Assembly (NCBI GenBank): GCA_937925685.1
Contig: CALAMI010000011.1
Location: forward strand, 1-64,000
Length of the DNA stretch: 64,000 bases
Direction of reading: 5' to 3'
Origin: Candidatus Binatia bacterium
GTDB lineage: Bacteria; Desulfobacterota; Binatia; HRBIN30
The position numbers and the translations under genes were made by a program. Below the pieces are notes generated by a model. It worked only from the letters and a program-made list of their open reading frames with translations, was not told the DNA's origin and did not search any database. Shown in pieces: positions 1 through 44,571 of this stretch (positions within the stretch are counted from its first letter, which is position 1; every line of letters starts with the position of its first letter).

Positions 1-264
1 CCCGCGTGCGCGGGGGAGACCGATGAATCCAGCCCCTGCCTTGCCGAATAATAGGTCGATCCCCGCGTGCGCGGGGGAGACTGCTGATTGATTGTGATGC
101 AATGGTGCAACGGGGGTCGATCCCCGCGTGCGCGGGGGAGACAGCGTCACGTCCACTTCATAATCAGCCGCTATAGGTCGATCCCCGCGTGCGCGGGGGA
201 GACCTCGGCCGCCATAGTGCTGGTGATATATCCCTGGGTCGATCCCCGCGTGCGCGGGGGAGAC
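1..264 (-). CRISPR. Type I-E CRISPR array, leader-proximal end
   Basis: Four complete 28-bp repeats lie at 54-81, 115-142, 176-203 and 237-264, with a truncated one at 1-20. They are separated by four 33-bp spacers (21-53, 82-114, 143-175, 204-236), giving a constant 61-bp period. The repeats look identical. Each contains the hairpin CCCCGC-GTGC-GCGGGG. Read on the minus strand each repeat begins GTCTCCCCC and ends GATCGACC, a typical I-E form. The cas2 gene and leader lie to the right, so transcription runs leftwards and new spacers enter at 264. The array continues beyond the left window edge, so total spacer number is unknown. Confidence 0.98.
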
Positions 265-328
265 TCTTGCTTCTAAGCATTCAAAACATCGGCATAAACC
301 GTTTTTCAAAGACCAGGTTACTCTCTAG
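265..328 (-). promoter_or_regulatory. CRISPR leader
   Basis: This 64-bp stretch lies between the cas2 stop codon and the first repeat and is AT-richer than its surroundings, which is where the leader and spacer-integration site lie in I-E loci. Four bases from the first repeat is an inverted repeat at 268-279 (TGCTT, CT, AAGCA). I see no unambiguous promoter hexamers. The role is inferred from position. Confidence 0.7.
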
Positions 329-631
329 CTAGCTGGGAGTTCGACGAGCGAGGATGAGTCCATCCACCTCTACGAAATCGATTGGCGGGGTTCCCAGGGT
401 CAGCACGGCTTGTCCGCCAGGTACATCGCGCTCCTGCCAGATCATAACGATGGAAGCGTCATCCTGCTCGTTAGGGAACCATTTCTCTAACACATCCCAT
501 ACTCGTTGTCGCACGGCAGGCGAGATACGCGGGGCACAATAGACACCAGGAGCCACTTCCAGCATTGTCGAGGCGAGGAAACCACGCACACGCCCCGACA
601 CGTTACGCGCCACCATCACGGTCATCGACAT
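329..631 (-). CDS. cas2: CRISPR-associated Cas2 (I-E type)
   Basis: This 100-residue protein is the Cas2e subunit of the Cas1-Cas2 integrase that inserts new spacers. The start MSMTVMVARNV, followed by GRVRGFLASTMLEVAPGVY, matches the beginning of E. coli Cas2 (MSMLVVV, then RLRG and LEV.AGVY). Cas2e scaffolds two Cas1 dimers; its own nuclease activity is not needed for integration. The ATG at 631 overlaps the end of cas1 by 29 bp, so the two are probably translationally coupled. It is the last cas gene before the leader. Confidence 0.96.
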   Translation of the reverse strand: MSMTVMVARNVSGRVRGFLASTMLEVAPGVYCAPRISPAVRQRVWDVLEKWFPNEQDDASIVMIWQERDVPGGQAVLTLGTPPIDFVEVDGLILARRTPS

Positions 632-1502
632 CGAACAGTTCCTTGATCCGCTGGATCATCTTGGGGATGAGTTGTTCCTGTCGGAACAGCCTCGCTGCCC
701 GCCGTCTAAGCTCGCGTTCTAGGTTGTCCGTCTTGCGGTCGAGGTATGCCCGTACAACGCTAAAAGCCAGAGGCAAGGTTAAGTCGACCCGGTAAAGGTC
801 CGCGATGTCCAGTGTGAAGGCGTTGCTTGAATTTTCATGAATGAAGCCAAGTGGCGGTAACGCACCCACCGCTGCCACGGCAATGTCAGCCGCCGCCTCG
901 ACAAACGTGGCCGCGTGATTGATCGCTTGGTTGGGTAAATCGGCTGCAGTGGGGTTATCGCGGTCGTACCGCCGCCCCTCCCAGCGGATGCCAAAACGCG
1001 CTGCCACCAACTTGTAGCTCTCCTTGATGCGCGCTCCTTCGATACCACGTAATGTTTCGATATCGCGGTGCGGTACCACGCGACCGAACCGCCAGGCATA
1101 CAGGTGCCTGGCGGTGTCCAGTCGCCGCTTCGGATCCGCCCACCTCTCGGCGTGGGCGCGGGCAACGTCAGAGCGCCCCTGACCCATTGGCGGAGCGGTG
1201 TAGCTTTTGACACCGCCCTCTCCCACGGCAGCAATCAGGACACCGTGGCGGGCGCACAGTCGCAATACGTCATGGGTCACGCTGGTTCCGGGACCCAGCA
1301 GCACCATGGAGACAGCTTGGTACGGGATAGCATACTCCCCGGCATCCAATAGATCGCTTTGGGCGGCTACGAAACGCAGGGTACCGTCTTCTACGGAAAG
1401 CCTACCGTACTCGAGCCACAGTAAGCCGTGGCGGTCAGCGTGAGGAATGCGCGAGCCCGCTAGACCTAAGCGACCGGGTAGTAAACCTGGATCTTTGCTC
1501 AT
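603..1502 (-). CDS. cas1: CRISPR-associated Cas1 (I-E type)
   Basis: Cas1e is the integrase that catalyses spacer insertion. The 299-residue length is normal for the subtype. The metal-binding triad is visible: a Glu in GIEGARIKESYK (about residue 153) and His and Asp in GFIHENSSNAFTLDIADLYR. The N-terminal part carries the usual beta domain (LLWLEYGRLSVEDGTL). The ATG at 1502 overlaps the cas6e stop codon in an ATGA junction. Confidence 0.98.
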   Translation of the reverse strand: MSKDPGLLPGRLGLAGSRIPHADRHGLLWLEYGRLSVEDGTLRFVAAQSDLLDAGEYAIPYQAVSMVLLGPGTSVTHDVLRLCARHGVLIAAVGEGGVKSYTAPPMGQGRSDVARAHAERWADPKRRLDTARHLYAWRFGRVVPHRDIETLRGIEGARIKESYKLVAARFGIRWEGRRYDRDNPTAADLPNQAINHAATFVEAAADIAVAAVGALPPLGFIHENSSNAFTLDIADLYRVDLTLPLAFSVVRAYLDRKTDNLERELRRRAARLFRQEQLIPKMIQRIKELFDVDDRDGGA

Positions 1503-2200
1503 CGCGGCGGACCTACCAACACCATGCCAAAGCCAAAAGCGCGATGTCGACCGATGCCTCGGGCCAGCAGTGCCCCGAAGCGGTCGGCGTCGGCGACTTC
1601 GACCTCTGCGGCGAACAACGCCTGTGGCCGCTCGACGATCCGCAGGCGATTAGCGCCTTTGCCGGCACGGCGTAGCAGGGGGCTTCGAGCGACCATGCCG
1701 AGCAACTCCACGCGCTCGATCCGTACTGCAAGCTTACACTGATTGACAAACCAGGATCGATACACTTCGGCACGCGACGGGGCGGCATCTCCTAAGCGGT
1801 CTAGTGCGCGCAAATAGACGTCTTTCTCCTGGCCACCCTTGCGTGAGACAGGGCAGGCGAGAACTTCCACATGCAAGCGCTGGCCGCTGCGCCAACTTGT
1901 TGGCATGGGTTTACTCACCATCCCATCGAGATCGTTGAGAGCTTTCCGGGCAGCAGGTGCCGAAAAGGCCTGAGCCTGTTCGACGAGCCGTTGTGCCGGA
2001 TCCCTCGCATAACCCAACACCTCCGCTCGCCCCTCTAGGTAACGAAACGGTTTGGGGGCCGCTCGGCCAAAAAGCGCAGCAAAACAAGCGTGCAACGTAT
2101 ATCCCAGCGTCTCGTCTTCCTGGGTGATACCGACATCACGGGCAAACCGCAGCAGGCTGGGTGGGTGAATGGGGATGCGCACCAAATGCAGGGAGTTCAT
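1499..2200 (-). CDS. cas6e: Cas6e/CasE pre-crRNA endoribonuclease
   Basis: This protein cleaves the repeat hairpin of the pre-crRNA and stays bound to the crRNA 3' handle in Cascade. The start MNSLHLVRI is chosen because it matches the family and forms an ATGA overlap with cas5; a longer frame to 2263 would overlap cas5 heavily. Tyr34 and His37 in LGYTLHACF align with the E. coli LYQLHQG segment that holds the catalytic His. The C-terminal glycine loop GIGRHRAFGFGMVLV is the family signature. At 233 residues it is somewhat longer than the E. coli protein (about 199). Confidence 0.96.
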   Translation of the reverse strand: MNSLHLVRIPIHPPSLLRFARDVGITQEDETLGYTLHACFAALFGRAAPKPFRYLEGRAEVLGYARDPAQRLVEQAQAFSAPAARKALNDLDGMVSKPMPTSWRSGQRLHVEVLACPVSRKGGQEKDVYLRALDRLGDAAPSRAEVYRSWFVNQCKLAVRIERVELLGMVARSPLLRRAGKGANRLRIVERPQALFAAEVEVADADRFGALLARGIGRHRAFGFGMVLVGPPR

Positions 2201-2925
2201 CCCGCCACCTTCAGGATCCCTACTGCGTAGCGCTCGGAGCCGAGATGGATGTTGTGACGCCATTCACGGTGGTCGAAGCGCTCCTCGGTTTGTGTCCCCT
2301 CCCCTTCATCGAGCGGCCACAATCCTGGAATCTGGGGAGGGCGGCGCCGCGGTGCAACCATGGCCAAAGGTTCTGCAACGAGCGCCGCCTTGACGCCAGA
2401 GGCCTCGCGTCGGCCGATCAGTAGGGGAGCTGCCGGTAAACAAGGCTTCCGACCAATAAAGAGCGGACGCGCGGGCGCCTGCAGGGCGCGCTCGAGATCG
2501 GCCAGAGTAGGTCTGCCTTCACCTTGAAGCGCGATGGCGACCGTTGCCACTCCGTTCGCCCAGTACTCGCGCCAGCGCTGGTGTGTACGCGTGGCTGCGC
2601 TGCCGCCTTTGCGATCCTCCCGCCGCCCGCGAGTGGTCCAGCCAGTGTCGACCATAAAGTCCTGACCCAGGTCGACTGTTTGATAATCGGTCATCAGCTC
2701 TGGCTCCGCATCCCAACGGACAGCAAAGCGCAGACGCGCCTGCAGGCTTCGCAGCCGCTCGGTGTCGCTGTGGTCCCAGCCCAAGGCGTTTCCCAGCAGC
2801 CCTACGAGCATGGATTTACCAGGGAAACGCCAGGTGGGGTTTCTCTCATCGACGACCACCGCGCCAAAGCTCATCAGGGGTGCGTCGAACCGCAGCACGA
2901 GGCATTCCATCTTATTTAGCTCCAT
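2197..2925 (-). CDS. cas5: Cas5e/CasD Cascade subunit
   Basis: Cas5e is the subunit that caps the 5' handle of the crRNA in Cascade. The 242-residue protein shows the family N terminus (LVLRFDAPLMSFG), then RNPTWRFPGKSMLVGLLGNALG, which corresponds to the TRPT.RFP..S.LLGLLG block of E. coli CasD. The start at 2925 overlaps the cas7 stop by 10 bp; an internal ATG at 2910 is an alternative. It is followed by cas6e with a 4-bp overlap. Confidence 0.95.
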   Translation of the reverse strand: MELNKMECLVLRFDAPLMSFGAVVVDERNPTWRFPGKSMLVGLLGNALGWDHSDTERLRSLQARLRFAVRWDAEPELMTDYQTVDLGQDFMVDTGWTTRGRREDRKGGSAATRTHQRWREYWANGVATVAIALQGEGRPTLADLERALQAPARPLFIGRKPCLPAAPLLIGRREASGVKAALVAEPLAMVAPRRRPPQIPGLWPLDEGEGTQTEERFDHREWRHNIHLGSERYAVGILKVAG

Positions 2926-4031
2926 ATGGCATCGATGCCGTCGCTTATAGCTCGGTCTAAAGGGACGTTGCGTAGCGCAGTCTTTACGGGCAGCACGGTG
3001 GCAAGTTGCCGGAGAGTACCTGCGCCATACATCTCGTCGAGCTTTGTCATATAGCCCAGCATGCGCTCCGCTGCTTCGACTCGAACGTCTCCTCGAGGAC
3101 GGACCGCCTCCAAAAAAGCGTTGGCGAGCGAACGCGGCTGCGTTTGCCCGGTCTCGATCAGCAACAGGTCTGCCCAGGCATAGGGCGCGGTGCTCCCTTT
3201 CTTTGCGCCAGGGCTTTGCCGCACGATGCTCTCGATCAGCGCTCGCAGCACCCGCCGCGGCGTAGTGGAATCCTGGTTTTTCCAGTGCCGCGGCTCAACG
3301 CCGGTCAGGTTGGAGACCAGAAGTGGCACATCCACGACAACATAGGCGTAATAAAGGCCAGCTCCCAATTCGGTTTGGTTGGCGTGAGCCGCCCCCGTTT
3401 CGTCGTCCCGGTTCAGATCATCGACGACGGTGAAGTAGTCCATCTCGGTGCCGGCCTCGTGCACGGTGAAGGCATGTGCCACATGTACGGGCGCATCTAC
3501 GCGGGCGAGCACGTCGGAAGTGACCATACGTCCAAACAAGGCAGCGGTGAGACCCGCAGCCGATTTGCTCATTGCCTTTAAGTTGTCTTTCTCCTCTTTA
3601 GAATTCAGCCGTTGCTCTAGAGCAGTCTCCGGACTGTTTTCCTTGCTGGCCTGCAACAGCATTTCCGTGAAGTATTCGGCCTCGCGCAGCCCAAATAGGA
3701 TGGGTTGGGCGAGGTCGCCACCTTCTTTGACGCCCCCAGCAACTAAGGCTTTGGCTAATCTCGCGACCAGGTTTTTGGCCACATCTTCGGGTACACCAGC
3801 AGCCACGACTTGCGGCAAAACCCTGCGAGTGAAGAAGGAGCGGGTGCGCTCGCCGTCTGGCAGATCTGGCAGCCGTGCGGTGAGATCGTCGCGCCAATGG
3901 CGCTTGAGACACTGCGACGACACGCGCAGGCGGAGGGCATTGCCGAAGCGGATGCGTTTGGCCAAACCAGCGTCGTCGCGATTTAACAGGGTCGCCGGGT
4001 ACGAGGTGAGAGTATGAACTTGCACGAACAT
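2916..4031 (-). CDS. cas7: Cas7e/CasC Cascade backbone subunit
   Basis: Cas7e forms the six-copy backbone that holds the crRNA spacer. It is 371 residues long, against about 363 in E. coli. The N terminus FVQVHTLTSYPATLLNRDD and the block GNALRLRVSSQCLKRHWR (residues about 31-48) are typical of the family. The start ATG at 4031 has a strong AGGAGG upstream; the open frame extends 46 codons further but lacks homology there. It follows casB by 16 bp. Confidence 0.97.
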   Translation of the reverse strand: MFVQVHTLTSYPATLLNRDDAGLAKRIRFGNALRLRVSSQCLKRHWRDDLTARLPDLPDGERTRSFFTRRVLPQVVAAGVPEDVAKNLVARLAKALVAGGVKEGGDLAQPILFGLREAEYFTEMLLQASKENSPETALEQRLNSKEEKDNLKAMSKSAAGLTAALFGRMVTSDVLARVDAPVHVAHAFTVHEAGTEMDYFTVVDDLNRDDETGAAHANQTELGAGLYYAYVVVDVPLLVSNLTGVEPRHWKNQDSTTPRRVLRALIESIVRQSPGAKKGSTAPYAWADLLLIETGQTQPRSLANAFLEAVRPRGDVRVEAAERMLGYMTKLDEMYGAGTLRQLATVLPVKTALRNVPLDRAISDGIDAIWS

Positions 4032-4047
4032 GGAACCTCCTCCTTGT

Positions 4048-4572
4048 TTATTCTTCTTTGCCCAGGTGGCGGTAGTACGCTTCAGCAATGCGCCGGTGGA
4101 TGGCTTGGCGCTTGTTGGCATCGCGGCTGAGCAAAAATTCGGCGGCCTCAGTCCAATCGAACCCCTCATCCTTTGCTGCTAGGAACCGCACCGCGCTCAT
4201 GAAAAGCTCGTTGCGCAGTTCATCTGGCGCGGCGAGTAGGCGCTCCAGGCGGCCCTCAGCAAAACCGGCTTCCGCCAGGGCTCGGCCGAAGGGCCGCTCC
4301 GGCCGGTGGGCGGAGCTGCCCATGGTGGCGACGCCCCACGCTAGCGTCATCCATGCGTCACACTGATGGTCATACGGCAAGTCCTGACCGAGATGGCGCA
4401 GCCAGAGGCGATAGAAGGCGAGCGGCAGTGCTTGTCCAGGGGCCCAACGCTTGAGCGCCGCGCGATCCCTTGCGGGGTAGTGGGGTGCAGCGACCACGCC
4501 AGTCAGGGTGGCGACGATCCTGCGCAGGCTCGAGGGGTCCCTGGCCGTGAACTTTTCGGGGTTGGGGCTCAT
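4048..4572 (-). CDS. casB: Cse2/CasB Cascade small subunit
   Basis: This is the Cascade small subunit, present in two copies, which stabilises the displaced DNA strand of the R-loop. It has 174 residues, close to the usual 160-180. It is mostly helical with many basic residues (LKRWAPGQALPLAFYRLW near residues 41-58, ANKRQAIHRRIAEAYY near the C terminus). The ATG overlaps the casA stop in an ATGA junction. Small subunits diverge quickly, so the call leans on position as well as sequence. Confidence 0.92.
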   Translation of the reverse strand: MSPNPEKFTARDPSSLRRIVATLTGVVAAPHYPARDRAALKRWAPGQALPLAFYRLWLRHLGQDLPYDHQCDAWMTLAWGVATMGSSAHRPERPFGRALAEAGFAEGRLERLLAAPDELRNELFMSAVRFLAAKDEGFDWTEAAEFLLSRDANKRQAIHRRIAEAYYRHLGKEE

Positions 4573-6182
4573 GGAGCGATCTCCTCAACGGCACCCTCAT
4601 CAGCAATTGGGGCTGAAGAGGGCATGGGCAAGTAATTTTTGCGCAACACTCCCCGCCAAATATCGTTGGCTTTAATCCGTGCGCGCCAGAGGCGATTGGA
4701 AATCAACGGCAACCGTGCAGCGGCTTCATCGAGGAGCGCCTGGGCAGTATCGACCAGCCGTTGTCTCCAAACTTGGGTGACGACTTCGTGGTCTTCATCT
4801 GCACCACGCCAGAGCGTTGGAAAGTAAATGGCCTCCCACCGCCGACTGAAGTCCTTCGATGTTTTTCCCAGCCACTTGTTGACGGCGTCGCGGGTGAAAT
4901 CTGCGAGATCTGGCCCCCCTTCAGCGAAAATCGTGAGAGCCGCAATGAGAGCCTTCTGCACGTCTTTGGCGTCGTTCAACAAGGTTTGCGCCAATTTGCC
5001 TAAGCTTTGACGGAATGAGTTGTTGGACCATGCCATACACACCCTGGAGGGAATGGGCAGTTCAATGCGGTGGAAGCCCTCGGTTGTCCCTTGGCCACGA
5101 ACTAGACAACTGGCAACGAACCAGCCGCTATCGTTGCCAGGTTGCGGGTGTTGCAGGGGGGTCAGTTCGAAACCATTTTCGAACAGCAAATCCGCTAATC
5201 GCTGGGGGGAGAATCCTTCGGCGGACAACGTCATAGCCGAGCGGCCTTTTTTTTTCTTGTCCGCTACGTTGATTGGGGTCCACGGATCCCCGACGTCGCC
5301 GTTTTTGATCGTTTCTGGGCCGATCTGGCGCGTTTTGCTCGTAGCGCCCAAAGCGATGATCGACCCGTTTGCCAAGGCCCGTAGACGAACCGCCCGGGCA
5401 GCTTCGATAAACCAAGGCTCCAGTTGATCCAGGAAATACTGGTACGTTTCTCGATTCCAGCGAGTGAGCCAAGTGAGAACCACGCCTTTTTGCACGTAGT
5501 TGAATTTGCGGCATGTCTCCGAGCGCAGTTTCTGTAAGGCGTTCACTTCGGCGGCGAATCGCTGCGAAGGATGCAGGCTACTCGCCCAGGCGACGATGGG
5601 GCGGCTGGCAAAGCCGCCATTCATACGTACGATCCCGTAGTTGCCCTGGCCGAGGAAGCCACTGGTGGTTTGCAACGTTAGCAACGCATAAACCCACGCG
5701 TCAGGCTCAGATGATCCAATGCGTGAGGCTTTGACGTCGTGGTTCTTGGCCGTGACAAGAACATCGAGCTCGTCGGGGGTCGTTGCCTTGGGCCGATAAA
5801 CAGGCATGCCCTTGGTCATTTTCGCGCCAAAATCCGTGGCTTCGACCTCCCAGCTTGTCCATGGATGTTGCAAAAACGCAGGAAGGGTCACGTCTTCAAC
5901 CAGGAGATGCCAGGCAGTCTCCGCTCCGTCAGCCAGGTCGAGCAGGCCATCGCGCCAATACGTTGGTTCTGTTGGGAGCGCTTTCGACGGGAAGCGAGCC
6001 TGAATGCTGGCCGCTAGCTGTACCAAAAACACATGCCAAGGGTCACACTGGTGGGCGCGCAACCGGGTGTAGCCTTCGACTCGACCGGCGCTCAAGGCAG
6101 CAAGAAGCTCGGGTAAGCTTAGATAGGACTCCCCCCCACCGGTGCGCACCCCGATCAGCGGGTCGCTCAATAAGTTATGCAT
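4569..6182 (-). CDS. casA: Cse1/CasA Cascade large subunit
   Basis: CasA recognises the PAM, opens the target DNA and recruits Cas3. The 537-residue protein begins MHNLLSDPLIGVRTGGGE, like the NLL.D.WIPVR start of E. coli CasA. It also contains the segment LLTLQTTSGFLGQGNYGIVRMNGGF (about residues 166-190), a typical Cse1 block. The C-terminal third is helical, as expected for the four-helix bundle. It overlaps the cas3 end by 8 bp and casB by 4 bp, so the interference genes form one unit. Confidence 0.95.
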   Translation of the reverse strand: MHNLLSDPLIGVRTGGGESYLSLPELLAALSAGRVEGYTRLRAHQCDPWHVFLVQLAASIQARFPSKALPTEPTYWRDGLLDLADGAETAWHLLVEDVTLPAFLQHPWTSWEVEATDFGAKMTKGMPVYRPKATTPDELDVLVTAKNHDVKASRIGSSEPDAWVYALLTLQTTSGFLGQGNYGIVRMNGGFASRPIVAWASSLHPSQRFAAEVNALQKLRSETCRKFNYVQKGVVLTWLTRWNRETYQYFLDQLEPWFIEAARAVRLRALANGSIIALGATSKTRQIGPETIKNGDVGDPWTPINVADKKKKGRSAMTLSAEGFSPQRLADLLFENGFELTPLQHPQPGNDSGWFVASCLVRGQGTTEGFHRIELPIPSRVCMAWSNNSFRQSLGKLAQTLLNDAKDVQKALIAALTIFAEGGPDLADFTRDAVNKWLGKTSKDFSRRWEAIYFPTLWRGADEDHEVVTQVWRQRLVDTAQALLDEAAARLPLISNRLWRARIKANDIWRGVLRKNYLPMPSSAPIADEGAVEEIAP

Positions 6183-8727
6183 GTCGTTTTTCCCTTTCTA
6201 AACCGAAACGGCTGTAGGAAAAAGTTTGTTGGGACACCGTGAAATGGAAGCCGCAGGCGTGCACGACTGGGTCAACTGTCTCGGGAAATCTCGCTTCCGT
6301 CAGCCAGCGGGCCGGGATGGGGACGCGCTCGATCATTGTGCCGAAAGCCGACCGTGAGGGTACCGTCAGCGGAATGTCGAGGGTGGGTTCGCTCAGGCGT
6401 GTTGCTACTGTTTCCCCTTTATCGAGGTAGTGTAATTCCCCAAAGGGTTGGTTTGTCAGGACCGAGGACAGGGCGGTACGCAATTCGCTCAGCTCCCTAG
6501 CAAGGATGTTCCGGCCATGATTATCCCAGACTTTGCCTAGGCTAGAGAAAGCTTGTGGGTGAGTGGTCAGCTCGATCAACGCCCGCGCATCATCCGGTAA
6601 CCTTAAGACGCCTCGCTTGCGCAGTTCTCTGATCGTGCAAACGAGGACGCGGCCATCAGCGTAAACGTTCCCTAACCCAGCCGGACCACGCAGGATACCT
6701 TGTTTGCAGAGATATTCTGCTAGGTCGCGGTCTGGCACACGCACCAGTGCCCGGGGTTTTTCAAAATCCAGCGGGCGCGAGTCGCGCGCGTGGCGATGTA
6801 GACGGCCAAGGCGCTGAACGAGCACATCCATTGGGGCAAGATCCGTTACCAGCCAGTCGGCATCGATATCCAGGCTTTGTTCCAGAGTCTGCGTGCCGAT
6901 CAAGAGAAGAGGAGCCGCCACCGAGCGTGGACCCATAAGGCGAGTGACCTGTGCGTCCAGCCTTTCACGATCCTCGCGCGCAAAACGCCCGTGATGCGGG
7001 CAGCGCACACCATCCAGGTCAAAAAGCGCGCGCAACAGCTGGGGATGCCGCTCCTTCAGAACCGATTCAACCTGGCGCAAGAGGTTGTTGGCACGGTTGA
7101 CGGTATTCGCGATGACTAAAATGCGTGCGCCCTTTTCAAGGGCAGCGACGAGTTGCGGAATGAGGGCTTGGTCATCGGTTAGTGTTGGAGATACCTCAAC
7201 CTCGATTTCCCGTCGTCGCGCCGCTGGCAAAGGGCAGCCGCCTCCTCTCGAGCTGATCAAGGGATAGGGGCGCTCGATGGCTTGTCCGAGCGGCAGTGGC
7301 TCGCGGACGAAGAACGCGGCGGCCGCTACCTCTCCCAGGGTCGCCGAAAGTAGCAAAGCCCAGCCGCCTCGGGCCACGTGCCCCTGGAGCAGGGCCTGCA
7401 GCACCTGGTGCATGTAGGGGTCGGAGGCGTGCACCTCGTCCACGACGAGCAAATGGCGATCGAGGCAAACGGAACGCAGTAAGCTATGCTTGACCTGCAA
7501 CACCGACAGCAGTGCTTGATCGATGGTGCCCACTGCAATCGGAGCGGCCAGAAAACGCTTTGGACGCTCGGCGGACCATAGGCGCTCACGCCTGCGATCG
7601 CGTTCGGAATCGTCCCACAGGGTAGCGGTAGGGTCCGGCAAGACAGGGTTGCCATCGATGCGCACGTAGCCGGGTGCGGCAAGAAGTACCGGGCCAGGGC
7701 GATGCGCCGGTTCAAAAGCCCGATCGATAGCTGTACGGACCCGCTCGTAAAGTTCCCGAGCCGCCACCCGTGTAGGTAACCCGAAGTAAAGTCCATCCAC
7801 TTTGCCCTCAGCGTACAGTCGGAAGAACCAGGCTAGGGCCGCTTCGGTTTTGCCGGAACCGGTGTCGGACTCGATGAGCAGTAGGCGGCTTGTGTCATCG
7901 ACGGCCAAAGCACTGGCCAATGTTTCCTGCAGCGGCGATGGTGCAAATCCGAAAGTGTCGCGGAAAGGGCGCGTGCTACGTTGTCCGGAGGGATGCAACC
8001 CGATTGCGCTCAGCGCTCTCTCTGCAGCGGCACGCGCCAATGCAACTCGGTCCTCGCTCGGTGAGGCGCGATAAGGGAAAAACTGGGTGTCGGAAGCTAT
8101 CCAGTCGGCGAGCATGACGAGGCCGGCAAAACGCTGCTGCAGGGCGGGCGGAGCGGCAATGACCGGTGTGACCACTGCAAAGGCATCTGGGAATACGGTC
8201 CGCGCGGTTTCTGCCAATATGGCTAATGCAGACATGGGGTTGTACCCATGCCGCTCGCCCCAAAGGTGCTTAGCGCCTCGCCCAACGCCTGAGCTAAGGT
8301 AATCGTTCATCGACACAGGTCGGCCATGATGGGAGATGGCGGCTAGCAACATCTGCATGGCCACTTCACCGTCACCGCCGAACCAGCTAACGATGTCTTG
8401 CAGCAATTGCGACCACGTTGGCGGGTAGGCTTCTTTGAGTTTCGGTTCGTAAAACAGGGCGAGTGCCTCTAGCACGTGCCCGGCAGTGCCCTTCGCTTTT
8501 GGGTCGGCCTTGGCCTGGAATCCCGCATTACATTTTCCCAGATCATGAAGGTAGGCGATGACCGCCAGCCGGTCTTTCTGCCCTTCATCGAGGGTAGCGG
8601 GCAGGCGTGCCAAGTTTTTGCTTTCCAAAAGCTTGCGGAAGACAACGGCCACGTCGATACAGTGATCGACGAGAGGATGGGTTGCTCCGTTCGCGTCACG
8701 CTTCCCCCAAACCTTCTCCTTCAGCAT
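6175..8727 (-). CDS. cas3: Cas3 helicase-nuclease
   Basis: Cas3 unwinds and degrades target DNA after Cascade binding. The N-terminal HD nuclease domain shows THPLVDHCIDV, AYLHDLGK (about residues 59-66) and ISHHGR. The superfamily 2 helicase domain follows: Walker A SDTGSGKTEAAL (about 285), the box VVDEVHASD, LLLSATLGE, then GTQTLEQSLDID and QRLGRLHRH. The 850-residue length fits the family. The ATG at 8727 is preferred; an in-frame TTG at 8739 is possible. Neither has a clear ribosome binding site. It is the first gene of the cas unit. Confidence 0.96.
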   Translation of the reverse strand: MLKEKVWGKRDANGATHPLVDHCIDVAVVFRKLLESKNLARLPATLDEGQKDRLAVIAYLHDLGKCNAGFQAKADPKAKGTAGHVLEALALFYEPKLKEAYPPTWSQLLQDIVSWFGGDGEVAMQMLLAAISHHGRPVSMNDYLSSGVGRGAKHLWGERHGYNPMSALAILAETARTVFPDAFAVVTPVIAAPPALQQRFAGLVMLADWIASDTQFFPYRASPSEDRVALARAAAERALSAIGLHPSGQRSTRPFRDTFGFAPSPLQETLASALAVDDTSRLLLIESDTGSGKTEAALAWFFRLYAEGKVDGLYFGLPTRVAARELYERVRTAIDRAFEPAHRPGPVLLAAPGYVRIDGNPVLPDPTATLWDDSERDRRRERLWSAERPKRFLAAPIAVGTIDQALLSVLQVKHSLLRSVCLDRHLLVVDEVHASDPYMHQVLQALLQGHVARGGWALLLSATLGEVAAAAFFVREPLPLGQAIERPYPLISSRGGGCPLPAARRREIEVEVSPTLTDDQALIPQLVAALEKGARILVIANTVNRANNLLRQVESVLKERHPQLLRALFDLDGVRCPHHGRFAREDRERLDAQVTRLMGPRSVAAPLLLIGTQTLEQSLDIDADWLVTDLAPMDVLVQRLGRLHRHARDSRPLDFEKPRALVRVPDRDLAEYLCKQGILRGPAGLGNVYADGRVLVCTIRELRKRGVLRLPDDARALIELTTHPQAFSSLGKVWDNHGRNILARELSELRTALSSVLTNQPFGELHYLDKGETVATRLSEPTLDIPLTVPSRSAFGTMIERVPIPARWLTEARFPETVDPVVHACGFHFTVSQQTFSYSRFGLEREKRHA

Positions 8728-8841
8728 GTTCGCAGTCAACTAAGGTTAATTTTGGGGGCTTGGTCAAGTAGAAATTACATATGGCCGCGGAGCGAGAACT
8801 TCGGAGTGAACGTTTCTTTGCAGGGGTGGAATGTGGCACAC

Positions 8842-36162: not shown

Positions 36163-36468
36163 ATGGCGTCACACGTGGTTCCCACGCGCGTGTACTTTTT
36201 GATCTTTCTCGCGCTGATGGTGTTGACGGCGATTACCGTGGCCGTTGCTTACGTCGACCTCGGCTTCTTCAATAACGTCGTGGCGTTGGGGATTGCCTGC
36301 ACGAAGGCGACGTTGGTGATCCTTTACTTTATGCACGTGCGCTACAGCGATTACTTGGTCAAACTTTCCCTCGTGGTGGGAATCTTGTTTCTAGCCATCC
36401 TGTTTGGCTTCACCTTGTCCGACCCGTTGACCCGCGAGTGGATTCGCCCGATCCACTACTTGTGGTAG
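36163..36468 (+). CDS. coxD: Cytochrome c oxidase subunit IV
   Basis: A 101-residue protein with three membrane helices (VYFLIFLALMVLTAITVAVAYV, GIACTKATLVILYFMHV, LVVGILFLAILFGFTL). The KATLVILYFMHVRYS block is the bacterial subunit IV signature. GAGGAGGAAA lies upstream of the ATG. It is the last gene of the operon. Confidence 0.94.
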   Translation: MASHVVPTRVYFLIFLALMVLTAITVAVAYVDLGFFNNVVALGIACTKATLVILYFMHVRYSDYLVKLSLVVGILFLAILFGFTLSDPLTREWIRPIHYLW

Positions 36469-37412
36469 TGGGCAAAGCCACTTACCCGGGGGTGGCCGTG
36501 CGTTCGCCACTGTCGCGTGAAACGAATCGCTCCGCATTGCGGTGCAACCCTGGAGTCGTGGACCACACCGAGAACGGTCTAGCGCTTTGCGGATACCGAG
36601 GTGCGCTGCGGTCAGCTCGCGCACAGTAGCTTTCTTCTTGGCCACTGGTTCCTAGCGGGGCGCTTGTAAGGCCGCACAGGCGATAGCCTCCCGGTAAGAG
36701 CAGCGCGCCCGTCGACGGTCGAACGGACTCCGTGAACCACCTTCCTTCGCCGCCGCAGTAACAGTGCGCTGTTCGTCAACCAGGGGACTAGCCCGTAGAA
36801 GCGAACCCCGCCCACGCTTCGAGCAAGCGTGGCAGAGGTTGTGCAGGCAAAACCTCCGCGGGGGTCGACGCCCGACGGTCTCCGGTCGCGGCAAAGCTGC
36901 TTTGTCGCAATCGGCTGCCGTGCCTCGATCTTTTATCGCCCCAGCGTTTGCACCAACCGGGCGCCTGCTTGACAATCGCGCCGGGCCCGGTGTAGCCACC
37001 GCAATGTCGGTAGGGGTGCTGTGAAACGCTTCCGGGAGTTCGAGCCGACACTGCTGTTCGGGCCAGAGTTGGCGAGGCAACCTTCCCAGGTGTGCTTGCG
37101 TGAAGACAGAAGAGAGCCTCGGGCCTGGTGGCTGCGCGCCTGGGTGATTGCCCGGCGGGAGCGTGGGCACCAGCCTTGCTGGACCCACGGCTACCGCACG
37201 CACTGCTTCCCCGTGTTCCTTGGGGCGGCTTGTCATGCCGTTCTTTGCCGGGTGTAGCGACCCTTGCGTCGACCTCGGGCCCTAGCCGGAAAGAACTTCC
37301 GACCGCGTCGCAATCCAGCCTTGCGGACCGAAGCTGCGAACAGATGGAACAAGGTTAGGAGCAACACGGCAAGCCACTCGCTTCCCGATTGGGAAAGAAG
37401 AGGAGGAGAACG
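36469..37412. other. 944 bases without a supported gene
   Basis: Open frames exist on both strands, for example 36652-37236 on the minus strand, but their translations are rich in Arg and Pro, lack recognisable motifs and have no ribosome binding site. I see no hairpin repeat or tRNA. The right end contains the GAGGAGG site of the following gene. Confidence 0.5.
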
Positions 37413-38363
37413 ATGAATGCGGAGAAACTCGAAGCCTTTCTCGAGCGTATCGCCGTTGCGCTCGAGGAGCTCGTCCGCCTCGTGGGCGGCGAGAACACTG
37501 ACAACGGTGCTGCCACCGAGCGCAAAGCGGTGGTGGCCGAGGCTCAAGGGGAAGAACCAGGCCCTGGTTCTTCCGTGCAAAAGGTGGAAGCTCCGTCGAT
37601 GTTGGAGGCGTTCCTTCGCGCCAGAGGGATCCAGATCAAAACCATTCCTACCGAGGAGCCGGCGGACGAGATCATCGACCGCTTAGCTCTTTACATTGGC
37701 GAGCGTTACGACTTGGTGGCCGATTTGCTCATCCGCCTCAAGCGTGCCATGCAGCTTGGCCTGCCCATCAGCATGAGCCTTAAAGGACGACCGCCCTTAG
37801 AAATCAGTTCCGTGTGCCAGCTCTGCACCTTTCTTCACCAAATGGCTTTCTTGGAGGACTATCAATACTCGAGGGCACCGAAATACGTGCTTCGAGCAAA
37901 AACAACCATGCTTCCAAAAGCGCAGCGGTTCTTGAGCGGTCAGTGGCTCGAGCGCTTTATGCTGCAGCAACTCAAAGCCATTGACACACAGTTGACGGCG
38001 CTCACGGGGCAGCGCTTTCCCTTTGAGTACCTGATGAATCCCCAAGTAGTTTTGCCCAACGGCAGTGATTTCGAACTGGATCTTCTGGCCGCCATCGGAC
38101 CACGGGTGTACTGGATCGAGGCCAAAACCGGGAATTATCAACAGCACGTGAGCAAGTACTCGAGGTATGTGCAAACTTTCGGACTCGATGCCGATCACTC
38201 TTTCATGGTTCTCGCCGATGCACCGGAGTCGCGTTGCGACGCTTTATCGTCGCTATTTGGGATGACGGTTTGCAACCTGAAAGCAGCACGTGCCAAGTTG
38301 GCCGCGGTGGTGACCAGCGATATCGGGAAACCAGAGTGGGCACGTTCGCTGGCCGGCGCCTGA
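37413..38363 (+). CDS. PD-(D/E)XK nuclease-like protein, Card1/DUF1887-like C-terminal domain
   Basis: The 316-residue protein has a C-terminal domain (about 180-316) with GQWLERFMLQQL, then E221 and D223 in FELDLL and the EXK core E236-A-K238 in YWIEAKTG. This order and spacing resemble the nuclease domain of Card1/Can2-type CRISPR ancillary nucleases. Those have an N-terminal CARF domain; here the first 175 residues are instead a short helix, a charged linker and a helical region with two Cys (SVCQLCTFLHQM) that I do not recognise. GAGGAGG precedes the ATG. It stands alone, 29 kb from the type I-E locus. A DNA repair or housekeeping role is possible. Confidence 0.7.
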   Translation: MNAEKLEAFLERIAVALEELVRLVGGENTDNGAATERKAVVAEAQGEEPGPGSSVQKVEAPSMLEAFLRARGIQIKTIPTEEPADEIIDRLALYIGERYDLVADLLIRLKRAMQLGLPISMSLKGRPPLEISSVCQLCTFLHQMAFLEDYQYSRAPKYVLRAKTTMLPKAQRFLSGQWLERFMLQQLKAIDTQLTALTGQRFPFEYLMNPQVVLPNGSDFELDLLAAIGPRVYWIEAKTGNYQQHVSKYSRYVQTFGLDADHSFMVLADAPESRCDALSSLFGMTVCNLKAARAKLAAVVTSDIGKPEWARSLAGA

Positions 38364-38688
38364 TCGTGGCAGCGCCTCCGCCAAGAGCCAGTGGGGATGC
38401 CCGAGGACATTTTACTTACCCGGTTCCAGCAGTCATGTTGTCGGCCGCGGTTGGTAGGCCCGAGATTCCGAGGAAGGTTGCCGGCCGGGCAGTGGCAACA
38501 GAGGCCAGTCTGAGGACTGTGGACCCAACGACCAAACGGGCGAGCAGCGTTCCTCTGGTGCCGAACGGATCGGTGTTTCGTTCGCGCGCTTTGGCTGTTA
38601 GTAGCCGCCCACCGATCAAGCAGGATCGTGCAAGAGGACGGCGACAAAACTTGTGGACAGAGAAGCGATAGAAAAGGAGTTCATGGCC
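38364..38688. other. Intergenic region, nothing recognised
   Basis: These 325 bases separate the nuclease-like gene and the CoA-transferase gene, both on the plus strand. No gene, hairpin repeat or clear promoter was seen. Confidence 0.4.
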
Positions 38689-39900
38689 ATGCCAACGCCC
38701 CTGGAAGGGATTCGCGTCATCGACTGGACGATTTGGCAACAAGGTCCAATGGCCTCCGTGATGTTGGCCGACCTAGGCGCCGAGGTCATCAAAATCGAGC
38801 AACGAGAAAGCGGCGATCCTGGCCGGGGGGTTTTGAAAATGAGCGGAATCGATTTGAGCGACCGGCCCAATTTTTACTTCGAGGCGACCAATCGCAACAA
38901 GCTAGGCATGGCCATCGATCTGAAAAGGCCCGAGGGGCGGGAGATTGTGCATCGGCTGGTGGAGAAGTCGGACGTTTTCGTTCAAAACTTCCGCCTTGGC
39001 GTGGCAGAGCGCTTGGGTCTAGGGTACGAGGATTTGGCGCGGCGCAATCCGCGCTTGATTTACGCCAGCGCCACCGGTTATGGCCCCCGAGGGCCCGAGG
39101 CAGAAGACCCTTCGTTCGATCAAATGGGTCTAGCTCGCTCGGGCTTTATGTACGCAGTGGGCGAGCCAGACATGCCGCCGCTGCAAGTCGCTGGCGGGAT
39201 TGCCGACCAAATGGGTGCCATCATGCTGGCTTACGGAGTGTTGGTTGCTCTGCTCGCGCGGGAGCGCTTCGGAGTGGGGCAGAAGGTCGATGCCTCCCAC
39301 CTAGGCAGCATGATTTGGCTGCAGGGATTGTCGGTGTCGTCACGGGTGATGATGGGTTTCGCCATTCCACGGATGCCACGAAAGTACGCGGCGAATCCTC
39401 TGTGGAATCACTATCGTTGCAAGGATGGTTTGTGGATTTGTCTGGGGATGTTGCAACCCGATCGCTATTGGGCCGACTTCGTACGTGTCCTCGGCCATCC
39501 CGAGCTGGCTCAAGACCCTCGCTTTGTGGATTTGCGCGCGCGAGCAGCGCACGCCGCCGAGGCCGTGGAAATCCTCGACGATATTTTTGCCAGCCGGCCA
39601 CGAGCGGAGTGGGTGGAAATCCTTCGCAAAGGCGGCGATTTTATCTTTACCGTGGTGAATTCCGTGGACGATCTACCCGACGATCCACAGGTGGTGGCCA
39701 ACGACTACGTCGTTCCCTTCGAACATCCTCGCTTCGGGGCCACGAAGGTTGTCGGGTTGCCAGTGCAGTTAAGCGCCACGCCTGGCAGCGTCCGCTTGCC
39801 GGCGCCCGAGTTTGGCCAACACACGGAGCAGATTCTCGTCGAGTTGCTGGGTTATACCTGGGAGGAGGTGGCTGAACTGAAAAACCGCGAGGTGATCTAG
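38689..39900 (+). CDS. Family III CoA-transferase (CaiB/BaiF type)
   Basis: Family III enzymes move CoA between carboxylic acids through an aspartyl-CoA thioester intermediate. The 403-residue protein begins PLEGIRVIDWTIWQQGPMASVMLADLGAEVIKIE, the family N terminus. DPSFDQMGLARSGFMY (about residues 144-159 from the start used) holds the catalytic Asp position. GVGQKVDASHLGSMIWLQG and the C-terminal HTEQILVELLGY are also typical. AAGGAG lies 9 bases before the ATG at 38689; ATG at 38683 and GTG at 38653 are alternatives. Substrate unknown. Confidence 0.9.
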   Translation: MPTPLEGIRVIDWTIWQQGPMASVMLADLGAEVIKIEQRESGDPGRGVLKMSGIDLSDRPNFYFEATNRNKLGMAIDLKRPEGREIVHRLVEKSDVFVQNFRLGVAERLGLGYEDLARRNPRLIYASATGYGPRGPEAEDPSFDQMGLARSGFMYAVGEPDMPPLQVAGGIADQMGAIMLAYGVLVALLARERFGVGQKVDASHLGSMIWLQGLSVSSRVMMGFAIPRMPRKYAANPLWNHYRCKDGLWICLGMLQPDRYWADFVRVLGHPELAQDPRFVDLRARAAHAAEAVEILDDIFASRPRAEWVEILRKGGDFIFTVVNSVDDLPDDPQVVANDYVVPFEHPRFGATKVVGLPVQLSATPGSVRLPAPEFGQHTEQILVELLGYTWEEVAELKNREVI

Positions 39901-41343: not shown

Positions 41344-44142
41344 TTAGCGTGCCCGTGATCTCCGTTCTCCTCCTCGAAGCCTGGCTTGCTGGCGACGACG
41401 CCACCACAGGGCCAATGCCCCGGAAAGCCAGATGAGTCCGGCCGTACGCGACCGTGGTGCCGCCGGGTCGAGGTCGCAGGAGCAAGCATCGCGATCCAGT
41501 GGCCCGAGCAACGTTGCCGTGGGTGTAGGGCTTGCCAGAGTTGTCGGAGTCGTCGGGGTGGTCGGTACCTCGGGGGTTGCGGTCGCTGTCGGGGGCACCG
41601 GTGCAGTAGGCGTGGCGCAGGCGCGCTCGCTCTCGAGACAAACTTCGCCACTGCTACACGGGGATGCGGCGGCGACGCACTGCCGACGCCCTTCATCGCA
41701 ACTTTCTATCCCGTCGCAAAAAATGCCATTGTCGCAGTTGCGACTTTGTCCGCCCCCGCAAAAGCCGCTGATACAAACCTCGTCGACCACGCAAAACGCT
41801 CCCGTAGAACAAGGCGTGCCGTCGGCTCGTTGATTGGGGCACTGCCCGGTCCGCGGGTCGCAGGTGCCAACATCGTGGCAGCCTCCGCCGGTGGTCGAGC
41901 AATCTTTGGGCGTGCCTACGCACATGCTCTCGATGCAGCGGTCGTCCACGGTGCACAAGTTGGCGTCGGAGCAAGGCGTGCCGTCGGGCCGTGGGTTGGG
42001 ACAAAGCCCGGTGGCAGGATTGCAAAGCCCGATATCGTGACAGCCATCGGTGGTCGAGCAATCCTTTGGTGTGCCGATACAGATGCTTTGCTCGCAACGG
42101 TCTCCCGAGGTGCAGAGGTTAGCATCGGAACAGGGGGTACCGTCCGGCCTGGGATTCGGGCACAGGCCTGTGGCCGGATCGCACTCGCCGGGGTCGTGGC
42201 AGCCGTCTGCCTGAGAGCAATCGATTGCCGTGCCACGGCAAAGGCTCGACTGGCATTGGTCATTGCGGGTGCACAAATTCCCATCGTCGCACGGGGTGCC
42301 ATTGGGCTGTGGATTGGGGCACAGGCCTGTGGCCGGATCGCACTCGCCGGGGTCGTGGCAGCCGTCGCTCGTGGAGCAATCGATGGGCTCACCTTGGCAA
42401 CGACCAGCGAGACAACGGTCGCCCGTGGTGCAAAGGTTGCCGTCCGAACACGGGGTGCCGTCGGGCCGGGGATTGGGGCAGAGGCCTGTGGCTGGATCGC
42501 ACTCGCCGGGGTCGTGGCAACCGTCGGCACCCGTGCACTCGACCGCTCGGCCTAGGCACGTTCCGGAAACACAACGGTCGCCCTCGGTGCATAGGTTGCC
42601 ATCGTCGCACGGCGCTCCCTCGGGTTTCGCTGGGTTGGAGCACAAGCCCGTTGCCGGATCGCAGCTGCCAGCTTCGTGGCAGGCATCGAGTGGCTCGCAG
42701 CGGATGGGGGAGAAGACACAAAGCCCATCTTCGCCGCACCGATCTTCCGTACAGAGGTTATTGTCCTCGCAGTCTGCATTCGTTCGACAAGTTGGCAGCA
42801 GATGACCGTGCACGTACACATCGGCGTGTTCGTTCCGGTCGCCGGGCGCAAGGTTCGTTGCCAAACTTGTGTAGGCAACCGACAACGGCTGGCAGGAGAG
42901 TGCAGGAGCGACATCGAGCACTGCGGCGTTGGCTTGGTCTCCGAGGGCGTTCCGATCGACGAGGAAGGTGCGTTGGGACACCAAGTCGCGCACGAACAAG
43001 CTCGCGACTTGGTTGAAATCCTCCGCAACCAAGTTGGTGGCTTCGCTGCCGAAGGCGACGAAGCGCCCGGAACAATCGATGGCAGGGGCGAAGGAGGTGC
43101 CGTTGCTGTCGCGTTCGAGGAAGCTCACGCTGACCCGCTGCGTTTGCTTGGTCAGGCGGTCGTGAACGAAGACGTCGACCAGGCCGTTGCGGTCGTTAGC
43201 GACCAAGTTCGTTGCGATCGATTTGAACGCCACGAAGCGGCCGTCGGCGCTAATACTCGGCAGGATGCTATCGCCGTTGCCGATCTCGCCGTTGGAGTTG
43301 CGACTCACCAGTTCCATGGTGCCAGTGTGACGGTCGCACACGAAAACATCGAGGACGCCATTGGAGTCGTCGGCGACCAGGTTCGTGGCGGCCGAGACGA
43401 AGGCGACAAAGCGAGCATCGGCGCTGATCGCGGGTTGTGACGACGGACCGTTCCCTTGCACGTTGCCGCAAACACGTTCGGTCGTACCTTGCTCGCGGTC
43501 GCGCACGAAGATGTCGGAGACGCCGTTCGTATCGTTGGCGACGAGGTTGTTGGCGAGAGATTGGAAGGCAACGAATCGCCCGGTGGCATCGATGCTAGGG
43601 GAACTGCTCGGGCCGTTCCCTTGCGTTTGCGAGCTGCTCACGCTCGCTCGCTCGGTGCGTGCCGAAGCTCGCAAGCGAACGAACACGTCGGTGACGCGGT
43701 TGGTGTCGCCGGGTACCAGGTTCGTTGCTTCCGAGTCGAAGGCCACGATCGAGCCGTCGGCGTTCATGGCAGGGTTGTCGCCGCCGCGGTGGCTGGGTCC
43801 GTTGGCTTGGGCACCAGTGTCGCTCACGCTGATCCGTTCCGTTTGCCCTAGGGCGCGATCGCGCAGAAACACATCGCGCATTTCGTTGGTGTCGCCTGTC
43901 ACCAGGTCCGAAGCATCGGAAAAGAAGGCAACGAAGCGGCCGTCGTTGCTGATCGCCGGGGCAACGCTGGCGAAATTCCCTGCCCGTCCGTCGCGGTTCA
44001 CGCTCACCAGCTCGGGCGGCGTATCGCCGAGCTGGGCGACCGCACCGAAGCTCCATAAAAGAGCTGGGAAGCAAACGCTCAGTGCGGTGGCCACGAAACG
44101 CCGCAGTGCTTCGATCCTCACCCGTGCCTTCGCCGAACCCAT
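41344..44142 (-). CDS. Large secreted Cys-rich repeat protein with beta-propeller and MYXO-CTERM-like tail
   Basis: The 932-residue protein has a signal peptide (residues about 1-37). Seven similar units follow (for example PSIDATGRFVAFQSLANNLV with NDTNGVSDIFVRDR), forming a predicted seven-bladed PD40/TolB-like propeller. Then come six units of about 53 residues with regular cysteines (DGCHDPGECDPATGLCPNP, GTPCSDGNLCTTGDRC), a short Pro/Thr linker, and a tail with CSC, a hydrophobic stretch (GLIWLSGALALWW) and an Arg-rich end. That tail resembles MYXO-CTERM sorting signals. GGAGGG precedes the ATG. It is probably surface-displayed; ligand unknown. Confidence 0.82.
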   Translation of the reverse strand: MGSAKARVRIEALRRFVATALSVCFPALLWSFGAVAQLGDTPPELVSVNRDGRAGNFASVAPAISNDGRFVAFFSDASDLVTGDTNEMRDVFLRDRALGQTERISVSDTGAQANGPSHRGGDNPAMNADGSIVAFDSEATNLVPGDTNRVTDVFVRLRASARTERASVSSSQTQGNGPSSSPSIDATGRFVAFQSLANNLVANDTNGVSDIFVRDREQGTTERVCGNVQGNGPSSQPAISADARFVAFVSAATNLVADDSNGVLDVFVCDRHTGTMELVSRNSNGEIGNGDSILPSISADGRFVAFKSIATNLVANDRNGLVDVFVHDRLTKQTQRVSVSFLERDSNGTSFAPAIDCSGRFVAFGSEATNLVAEDFNQVASLFVRDLVSQRTFLVDRNALGDQANAAVLDVAPALSCQPLSVAYTSLATNLAPGDRNEHADVYVHGHLLPTCRTNADCEDNNLCTEDRCGEDGLCVFSPIRCEPLDACHEAGSCDPATGLCSNPAKPEGAPCDDGNLCTEGDRCVSGTCLGRAVECTGADGCHDPGECDPATGLCPNPRPDGTPCSDGNLCTTGDRCLAGRCQGEPIDCSTSDGCHDPGECDPATGLCPNPQPNGTPCDDGNLCTRNDQCQSSLCRGTAIDCSQADGCHDPGECDPATGLCPNPRPDGTPCSDANLCTSGDRCEQSICIGTPKDCSTTDGCHDIGLCNPATGLCPNPRPDGTPCSDANLCTVDDRCIESMCVGTPKDCSTTGGGCHDVGTCDPRTGQCPNQRADGTPCSTGAFCVVDEVCISGFCGGGQSRNCDNGIFCDGIESCDEGRRQCVAAASPCSSGEVCLESERACATPTAPVPPTATATPEVPTTPTTPTTLASPTPTATLLGPLDRDACSCDLDPAAPRSRTAGLIWLSGALALWWRRRQQARLRGGERRSRAR
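41790..42700 (-). repeat. Tandem 159-bp coding repeat (Cys-rich units)
   Basis: The six Cys-rich units are encoded by tandem DNA with a 159-bp period: the segment starting CAGGCCTGTGGCCGG recurs at 42161, 42320 and, slightly changed, 42479. The middle units are nearly identical, suggesting recent duplication or gene conversion. Outer boundaries are approximate. Confidence 0.85.
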
Positions 44143-44571
44143 ACACCCTCCATCGCCATCTTTACGCCCCCAGGTTATCCACGGGAACGTTCGCCACTTC
44201 GTGGCCGCCTCTTTACCGCAAACAGAAGAAAATCCCAACACCGAATTGGTGCGCCTCTGGCGTGCGCCACCCAAGGTCCGCCATGGGGGCAGCTTGGGAG
44301 TGTGGCAGCTAGGCAGCGCGCATGGCACATGCCTTTGGAAAAGGCCCCCGGGGGGTGGCCACCGCAGTGCTGGCGCGATGCGCGCGAAAGCATGCGGCGA
44401 CGTTGGTGGCGGTGGCGACGACGGGCGCATTGCCATGCGCCCCTGCGACGGTGCGGGGACGACGGTGCCGATGGTGACAAAGGGCGCACTGCCGTGCGCC
44501 CCTACGACGGCACAATGCGCGCGCCTTCCGAGCGCGGCGCGGTCGGAAAAGCCTCGCAGCCGGGTGGTCTC
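44143..44571. other. Intergenic region with hairpin repeats
   Basis: These 429 bases lie between the Cys-rich protein gene start and the end of the broken EVE-nuclease gene. The left part should hold the promoter of the former. The right part is the tandem hairpin repeat. No gene is supported. Confidence 0.6.
44386..44513 (+). repeat. Hairpin repeat, tandem pair
   Basis: Two copies of a roughly 60-bp unit lie head to tail. The cores are GGGCGCAT-TGCC-ATGCGCCC at 44423 and GGGCGCAC-TGCC-GTGCGCCC at 44482, each followed by CCT(G/A)CGACGG. The outermost stem pair is T-A in one copy and C-G in the other, so pairing is preserved. Flanking bases (GCATGCGG.GACG, GGTGCC) match the 48605 copy. Confidence 0.88.

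Follow-up and report, generated by a model that had tools for sequence, protein, structure and literature searches.

What does a nuclease of the Can2/Card1 type do when it is encoded apart from the sensor that normally controls it? The window (the whole stretch analysed, 64,000 nucleotides) raises this question at positions 37413–38363 of the forward strand, where a 316 aa ORF encodes a CARF-less Can2/Card1-type nuclease. Card1 and Can2 stay off until a CRISPR signal is received, and a branch of the family that lacks the sensor therefore raises questions of safety and of trigger.

Nuclease domain and active site

The ORF begins with ATG and its reading frame is intact. Alignment, a profile match to PDB and the structural model place a PD-(D/E)XK nuclease core at residues 168–304 (37914–38324, forward strand). 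A first-pass annotation of this DNA had recognized a Card1/Can2 layout from E221, D223, E236 and K238 (38073–38126, forward strand) and from GQWLERF upstream (residues 176–182), and it had the positions right. The four putative catalytic residues, together with G176, W178 and E180, are identical in all 60 aligned relatives. The profile of these relatives matches Can2 (E 8.5e-9), Cdn1, VC1899, Card1 and other DUF1887 structures in PDB, through the nuclease part only. In the alignment, E221/D223 fall on the ELD of Can2, whose active site is Glu276/Asp278 (PMC7969007, partial text). On this evidence the window protein is very likely to be catalytically active.

Searches with single models were less clear-cut. 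Pfam PF09002 (Card1_endonuc) gives E 0.013 and 15.5 bits on the window protein, below its 26.4-bit cut-off, while the PADLOC CARF-PDDEXK and Csx1 models match to E 6e-8 over residues 138–293, mainly the nuclease half. NCBIfam and PHROGs gave no useful match. A zinc site at CQLC (residues 135–138) was considered and rejected, as neither cysteine is conserved across the 60 rows (C135 is Cys in 24 and C138 in 44).

Fold of the N-terminal part

The AF2 model (overall pLDDT 89.7) consists of a single helix, a linker and a compact core. The helix, at residues 3–25 (37419–37487, forward strand), is a possible coiled-coil or dimerization helix. The linker, residues 26–61 (37488–37595, forward strand), is predicted to be flexible and is modelled with low confidence, the pLDDT being below 50 at residues 29–47 and 55–57. 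The core, residues 62–304, is modelled with high confidence, mostly 93–98 by blocks.

Structural alignment with VIA-align places residues 62–301/302 on Can2 141–365 (7bdv; Z 17.6, rmsd 3.3, 201 aligned), residues 61–304 on Cdn1 148–399 (Z 16.9, rmsd 3.6, 228 aligned) and residues 59–292 on Card1 142–373 (6xl1; Z 12.3, rmsd 4.2, 189 aligned). In agreement, hhalign comparison of the family profile with 18 CARF-Card1 proteins taken from the same phylum as the window equates residues 61–298 with the post-CARF part (probability 98.9, E 1.4e-17). In Can2, the CARF domain comprises residues 3–151 and the nuclease half residues 166–366; the latter carries an extra motif of two strands flanked by four helices, and an accessory helical motif within the nuclease half is common to Can2 and VC1899 (PMC7969007, partial text). 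Since residues 62–302 model and align on the post-CARF half of Can2/Card1, residues 62–167 (37596–37913, forward strand) correspond to this accessory motif and not to a new sensor. The window protein is, as modelled, almost certainly of the Can2-type nuclease fold, and in the model residues 1–61 alone, one helix plus a flexible linker, occupy the place of CARF.

The first-pass annotation had described the N-terminal 175 residues as an unrecognized domain unlike CARF, and had raised the possibility of a different sensor. The absence of CARF is borne out: given the AF2 model and the VIA alignments, a Rossmann sensor within residues 1–175, whether CARF or another, was rejected. The description as unrecognized holds for residues 1–61 only, and the suggested sensor gives way, at residues 62–167, to the Can2/VC1899 accessory motif.

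In the models of both the window protein and a zinc-ribbon relative (L079), the accessory motif at residues 97–175 (window 37701–37937) resembles ribosomal protein S8 over the N-terminal part of the latter. This likeness was set aside, with a Z of about 8–9, near the level of common arrangements. A BFVD fold search with the window protein gave no match at E 0.001.

Relatives and their distribution

Matches to the window protein are present in 2 of 98 near genomes and in 5 of 395 genomes of the phylum, the window's own genome (G000) being counted in both; one of the five, in G116, was discarded as chance-like (49 residues, E 8e-4). In the order of G423, 9 of 146 genomes have matches, two of which are CARF-Card1 proteins. 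Such sparse presence lends no support to the proposition, raised in the first-pass annotation, that the family might be a known housekeeping nuclease. With a five-row alignment as the query against genome contigs, 135 relatives were found and 80 kept; a contig scan with the single protein as query yielded 43 pattern matches and no relatives. Viral contigs scanned with the family alignment likewise gave 25 pattern matches and no relatives, and a protein search of plasmids and phages gave no match. The family ORF set includes repeats from the same genome (L001/L003, which are the window, L004/L032, L006/L008, L011/L094 and L012/L080).

The window gene falls within an 11-row clade (SH-aLRT 99) that spans at least six phyla, its partners coming from Pseudomonadota, Planctomycetota, Bacillota, Cyanobacteriota, Spirochaetota and Deinococcota; the tree comes from a fast search whose only branch support is SH-aLRT, and MAG bins may include stray contigs. 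The copies from G001 (a congener of the window's genome), a member of the Spirochaetia, Meiothermus and a cyanobacterium are 74–82% identical at the protein level, with dN/dS of 0.11–0.14. Across the family pairs with computable dS, dN/dS is 0.07–0.14, indicating purifying selection. The G001 nuclease is 52–54% identical to the window copy; the CaiB-type protein encoded next to the window gene is 91% identical in the same congener. The distribution is patchy, and the gene has spread horizontally.

The N-terminal modules of the relatives vary. Simple patterns (for the helix, LExI(A/V)xxL-like) label 85 relatives as zinc ribbon (33), helix (19), MarR-like (8) or other (25); of the 60 aligned rows, Pfam at E 0.1 assigns a zinc ribbon to 13 and MarR to 5. 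Inspection by eye points to a membrane hairpin in some relatives and to repeated units or extra C-terminal sequence in others. The model of L079 comprises a four-strand ribbon and a long helix (residues 2–66) followed by the Can2/Card1-type post-CARF half, and it aligns on Cdn1 with Z 17.7, rmsd 3.5 and 226 residues aligned.

Several family copies are broken by frameshifts or by split or shortened ORFs (L005, L006/L008, L022, L088 and L096). Two tandem copies of the nuclease unit are present in Thiomargarita (L074 4596–6850), and a 1387 aa protein of Ruminobacter (L081 932–5095) has what appear to be several degenerate copies.

Genomic setting of the window gene

The nuclease gene lies in a spacer between a cox operon and a CaiB-type gene, both named by eye (36469–38652, not assigned to a strand), and the gene-poor flanks reported in the first-pass annotation are real. 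The spacer is about 2.2 kb in the window versus 392 bp in G001 and 350 bp in a second congener, G002, and the nuclease is absent from this position in both, although the flanking DNA is collinear on either side (81–85% identical in G001 and 78–84% in G002). G001 holds its own copy at another locus; G002 has none. In G002, repeated copies of a short CACCTACGTGTGCGCCC-like unit fill the spacer (L128). Rfam has no match over 36300–38800, and repeats around the window gene are short and chance-like only.

Conservation of the gene neighbourhood, suggested earlier as a check, was not found. Among the 121 neighbouring proteins within 3 kb at 23 loci of the window's branch, each Pfam family is represented in two at most; a fixed operon partner was rejected, as no neighbour family recurs. 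PADLOC applied to the same 121 proteins gave mainly Cas1 and CARF proteins among the matches listed (25 of 101 families), each in one or two proteins, and a general defence-island setting is absent.

Association with integron cassettes

Putative attC sites were sought with a finder built on consensus boxes (RYYYAAC and GTTRRRY) and not on a calibrated model; at the settings of the L020 sites, shuffled sequence yields about 0.9 attC-like sites per 100 kb and strand. In L020, the nuclease gene is flanked by two such sites, at 747–806 and 1732–1801. Of these, the upstream site satisfies the filter on the top strand alone; on the bottom strand, the outer stem is slipped in the fold of lowest energy. 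A cassette-form attC, defined by TTRRRY ahead of the start codon and a hairpin resembling attC where the ORF ends, is present in L020, L023, G001, L017 and L019. This amounts to 5 of 87 family members versus 1 of 606 neighbouring control genes (Fisher 1.5e-4). Within the clade of the window gene it amounts to 5 of 12 members (Fisher 6e-9 against the same controls), a clade that was singled out after the hits were known, with insertion at other sites allowed in the count.

The 12 members comprise the broken L022 and the 11 rows of the clade in the tree. Two entries, G001 and the window, were put into the count manually and the starts of seven loci were hand-set; L001, L003, L002, L006, L008, L015, L016, L032, L050, L088, L096 and the second piece of L022 were left out. 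The remaining seven clade members lack attC, and the finder recognized none at the ends of the window gene. At looser settings the finder picked up further sites, chance-like, in L019, L021, L028 and L033, and a box pair in L062 was dropped, fold support being absent.

Between close copies, DNA similarity begins about 16–18 bp 5′ of the ATG and ends shortly beyond the stop codon, and in four of the eight copies compared (G001, L017, L020 and L023) a TTRRRY box starts 16 bp 5′ of the ATG. Similarity limited to the ORF is weak evidence by itself, because dS is at least 0.7 and the flanks could have decayed. In the window, TTGGGA at 37389–37394 (forward strand), 24 bp 5′ of the ATG, is a possible degenerate cassette boundary, which violates the TTRRRY rule.

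An integron integrase (TIGR02249) exceeds the cut-off in 8 of 27 genomes (26 that hold the family plus G002) versus 0 of 14 controls, which do not give a base rate for comparable genomes. Three of the 12 clade genomes (G000, G616 and G622) are among those with an integrase. Only one of nine integrase regions (L165) has a visible attC; either the finder is insensitive or most of the nine integrons are bare. The G000 integrase (G000:C30:6–824; 390 bits versus a cut-off of 265) has one internal stop and is not on the nuclease contig. In G001, the nuclease gene is closely preceded, on the same strand, by a decayed integrase; in the usual integron layout, the integrase is divergent from the cassettes. 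The integrases of G000, G001 and G002 are all interrupted or decayed, and at the DNA level the G001 and G002 genes share 75% and 67% identity, respectively, with the G000 gene. The interrupted or decayed integrases of the genus are located at G000:C30 (L161 1–1050), L130 9845–10617 and L146.

Taken together, these sequence signals make it likely that the clade has spread partly as integron cassettes. Our confidence is reduced because of the single attC among the nine integrase regions and the single-strand site at L020. For the window copy itself, the chances that it was once a cassette seem even.

CRISPR-Cas in the window genome and in other holders

The first-pass annotation had stated that type III CRISPR genes are lacking, and this stands for the window genome within the searches made. 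Neither Cas10 palm2 nor Card1_endonuc has a match in G000 (95% complete), and a single Csm1 match scores 27 bits against a cut-off of 170, with similar weak matches in both congeners. Left unmentioned was a type I-E CRISPR-Cas locus at 1–8739 of the window. The array comes first (five repeats seen); cas1e, cas5e, cas7, cse2 and cse1 exceed the NCBIfam cut-offs, as does cas3 for its core and HD domains, and cas6e falls below its cut-off at E 2e-7.

The curated cut-off for Cas10 palm2 is exceeded in 22 of the 27 genomes (26 holders plus G002) and in 176 of 395 genomes of the phylum. The model matches Escherichia coli too, so this cut-off is too loose, and E 1e-10 was used instead. At this level Cas10 is found in 20 of 26 holders versus 118 of 395 phylum genomes (Fisher 2.4e-6), in a comparison counted by hand, with the reference from one phylum, the holders from many and G405 in both samples; the hosts are unmatched, and the enrichment is therefore a lead only. 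The holders without a strong Cas10 match are G000, G616, G623, G628, G630 and G631; the genome of L020 has no strong match (1.6e-5). G002 has a Cas10 match, yet no nuclease.

Cas1 is encoded near the nuclease at three loci in 1.0 Mb (L027, L033 and L063), with a Poisson P of 0.0003–0.007 under assumed cas1 densities, a statistic computed after the pattern was noticed. At L033 the nuclease gene lies 1 bp behind that of a CARF-nuclease-like protein (PADLOC Csx1/CARF_PDDEXK, E 2.5e-12), with a Cas_NE0113 protein one gene further and Cas1 5 kb on. Besides the CARF-less nuclease, the cluster at L033 3672–10884, close to Cas1, encodes a DUF2130 protein and several CARF proteins.

Possible function

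The reading that we favour, by a little over even chances, is that of a stand-alone, horizontally moved Can2-type nuclease that works independently of cyclic oligoadenylate (cOA) and is probably directed against phages or plasmids. Direct cOA sensing is very probably absent, as predicted from the missing CARF. In this mechanism the complete Can2/Card1 C-terminal half would have been retained and CARF swapped for the N-terminal helix and flexible linker. In Cdn1, binding of cOA closes the nuclease domains as a dimer and builds the active site, which is the switch-on (PMC12825302, partial text); pairing driven by a helix would make cOA needless here. We suggest that helix 3–25 pairs two nuclease domains, a role that the ribbon or another module may take in relatives, and that the paired domains would be active or primed without cOA. 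Its targets would be the DNA and/or RNA of phages or plasmids that enter the cell, and expression level or substrate may hold the nuclease in check. The gene may be gained and lost as a single-gene mobile unit, partly via integron integrases.

A split Can2 would be a different solution, in which nuclease and CARF are separate proteins that work in trans, and cOA from a type III system turns the nuclease on. The arrangement at L033, the three loci with Cas1 nearby and the excess of Cas10 among holders are all as such a system would have it. Against it are the absence of Cas10 palm2 from G000 and of strong Cas10 from the genome of L020, the G002 genome with its Cas10 match and no nuclease, the failure of any CARF family to recur in near neighbours among the matches listed, and a Cas10 reference sample drawn from one phylum for holders from many. 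We regard a split Can2 as unlikely. That the window copy is a relic without function is the least credible of the alternatives: the ORF is intact, the invariant residues are all kept and the model is confident, and these outweigh the lack of attC at the window copy, the state of the integrases in the three genomes of the genus and the broken copies elsewhere (L005, L006 and L022).

The remaining alternatives concern the use to which an active nuclease is put. A selfish or addictive cassette, in which a toxin-like nuclease stabilizes mobile DNA, would fit a cassette-like single gene and the genes next to L017, L019 and L041 that, by eye, resemble toxin-antitoxin genes. Such a role is improbable, given that no partner gene recurs and that tandem and domain-fused forms are atypical of toxins. 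A housekeeping role in DNA repair or RNA turnover is very improbable for a gene with patchy presence, cross-phylum transfer and no conserved neighbour in the window's branch; what speaks for it is a RecQ-like gene (by eye) 35–36 bp downstream at four Zoogloea loci of the zinc-ribbon branch (L069, L070, L082 and L087).

For the stand-alone, cOA-independent nuclease, defence is the likeliest role, at about an even chance; this follows by analogy from two precedents. One is bAgaN of the long-B Argonaute system BPAN, a dimeric DNase that is structurally similar to Card1/Can2 and acts in defence (PMC10620215, partial text). Compared by description, bAgaN and the window protein are both Card1/Can2-like nucleases, bAgaN with a partner other than CARF signalling and the window protein predicted to work without it. 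The other is the integron: integrons are known stores of defence genes, and in Vibrio cholerae roughly one integron cassette in ten had anti-phage activity on expression (PMC12409362, partial text). Like the integron-borne anti-phage cassettes (Darracq 2025, Kieffer 2025 and Getz, as cited in PMC12409362, partial text), the present genes are small single-gene units, with attC-like bounds in some close relatives. They differ in that the window copy is without attC, and the available part of PMC12409362 names no Can2-type nuclease cassette.

Comparison with Can2/Card1 (DUF1887) themselves, the type III CARF effectors that include VC1899 and Cdn1, reveals the same post-CARF half with E-x-D and E-x-K. 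Unlike these effectors, the window protein has 61 residues of helix and linker in place of CARF, and it is encoded by a solo gene in a genome without a Cas10 palm match. No report of a CARF-less Card1/Can2 branch or of a Can2-type cassette was found in the literature searched, which left out bioRxiv preprints altogether and subscription papers for the most part. It is tempting, if still somewhat speculative, to propose that a large Can2/Card1 branch has left CRISPR signalling, CARF having given way to modules of coiled-coil, zinc-ribbon, MarR-like, membrane or tandem type, and that one clade of it is a cOA-independent, single-gene anti-phage integron cassette found across phyla. A widespread sensorless branch provides small constructs for direct tests of control. 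The cassette link, if true, ties type III CRISPR effectors to the integrons that store anti-phage genes.

The nuclease bAgaN acts with a neighbouring Argonaute (PMC10620215, partial text). Among the ORFs at 34–42 kb of the window, no Argonaute was recognized on reading by eye. A 1030 aa ORF on the reverse strand at 41344–44436 has, also by eye, a TolB-like part followed by repeated cysteine-rich units.
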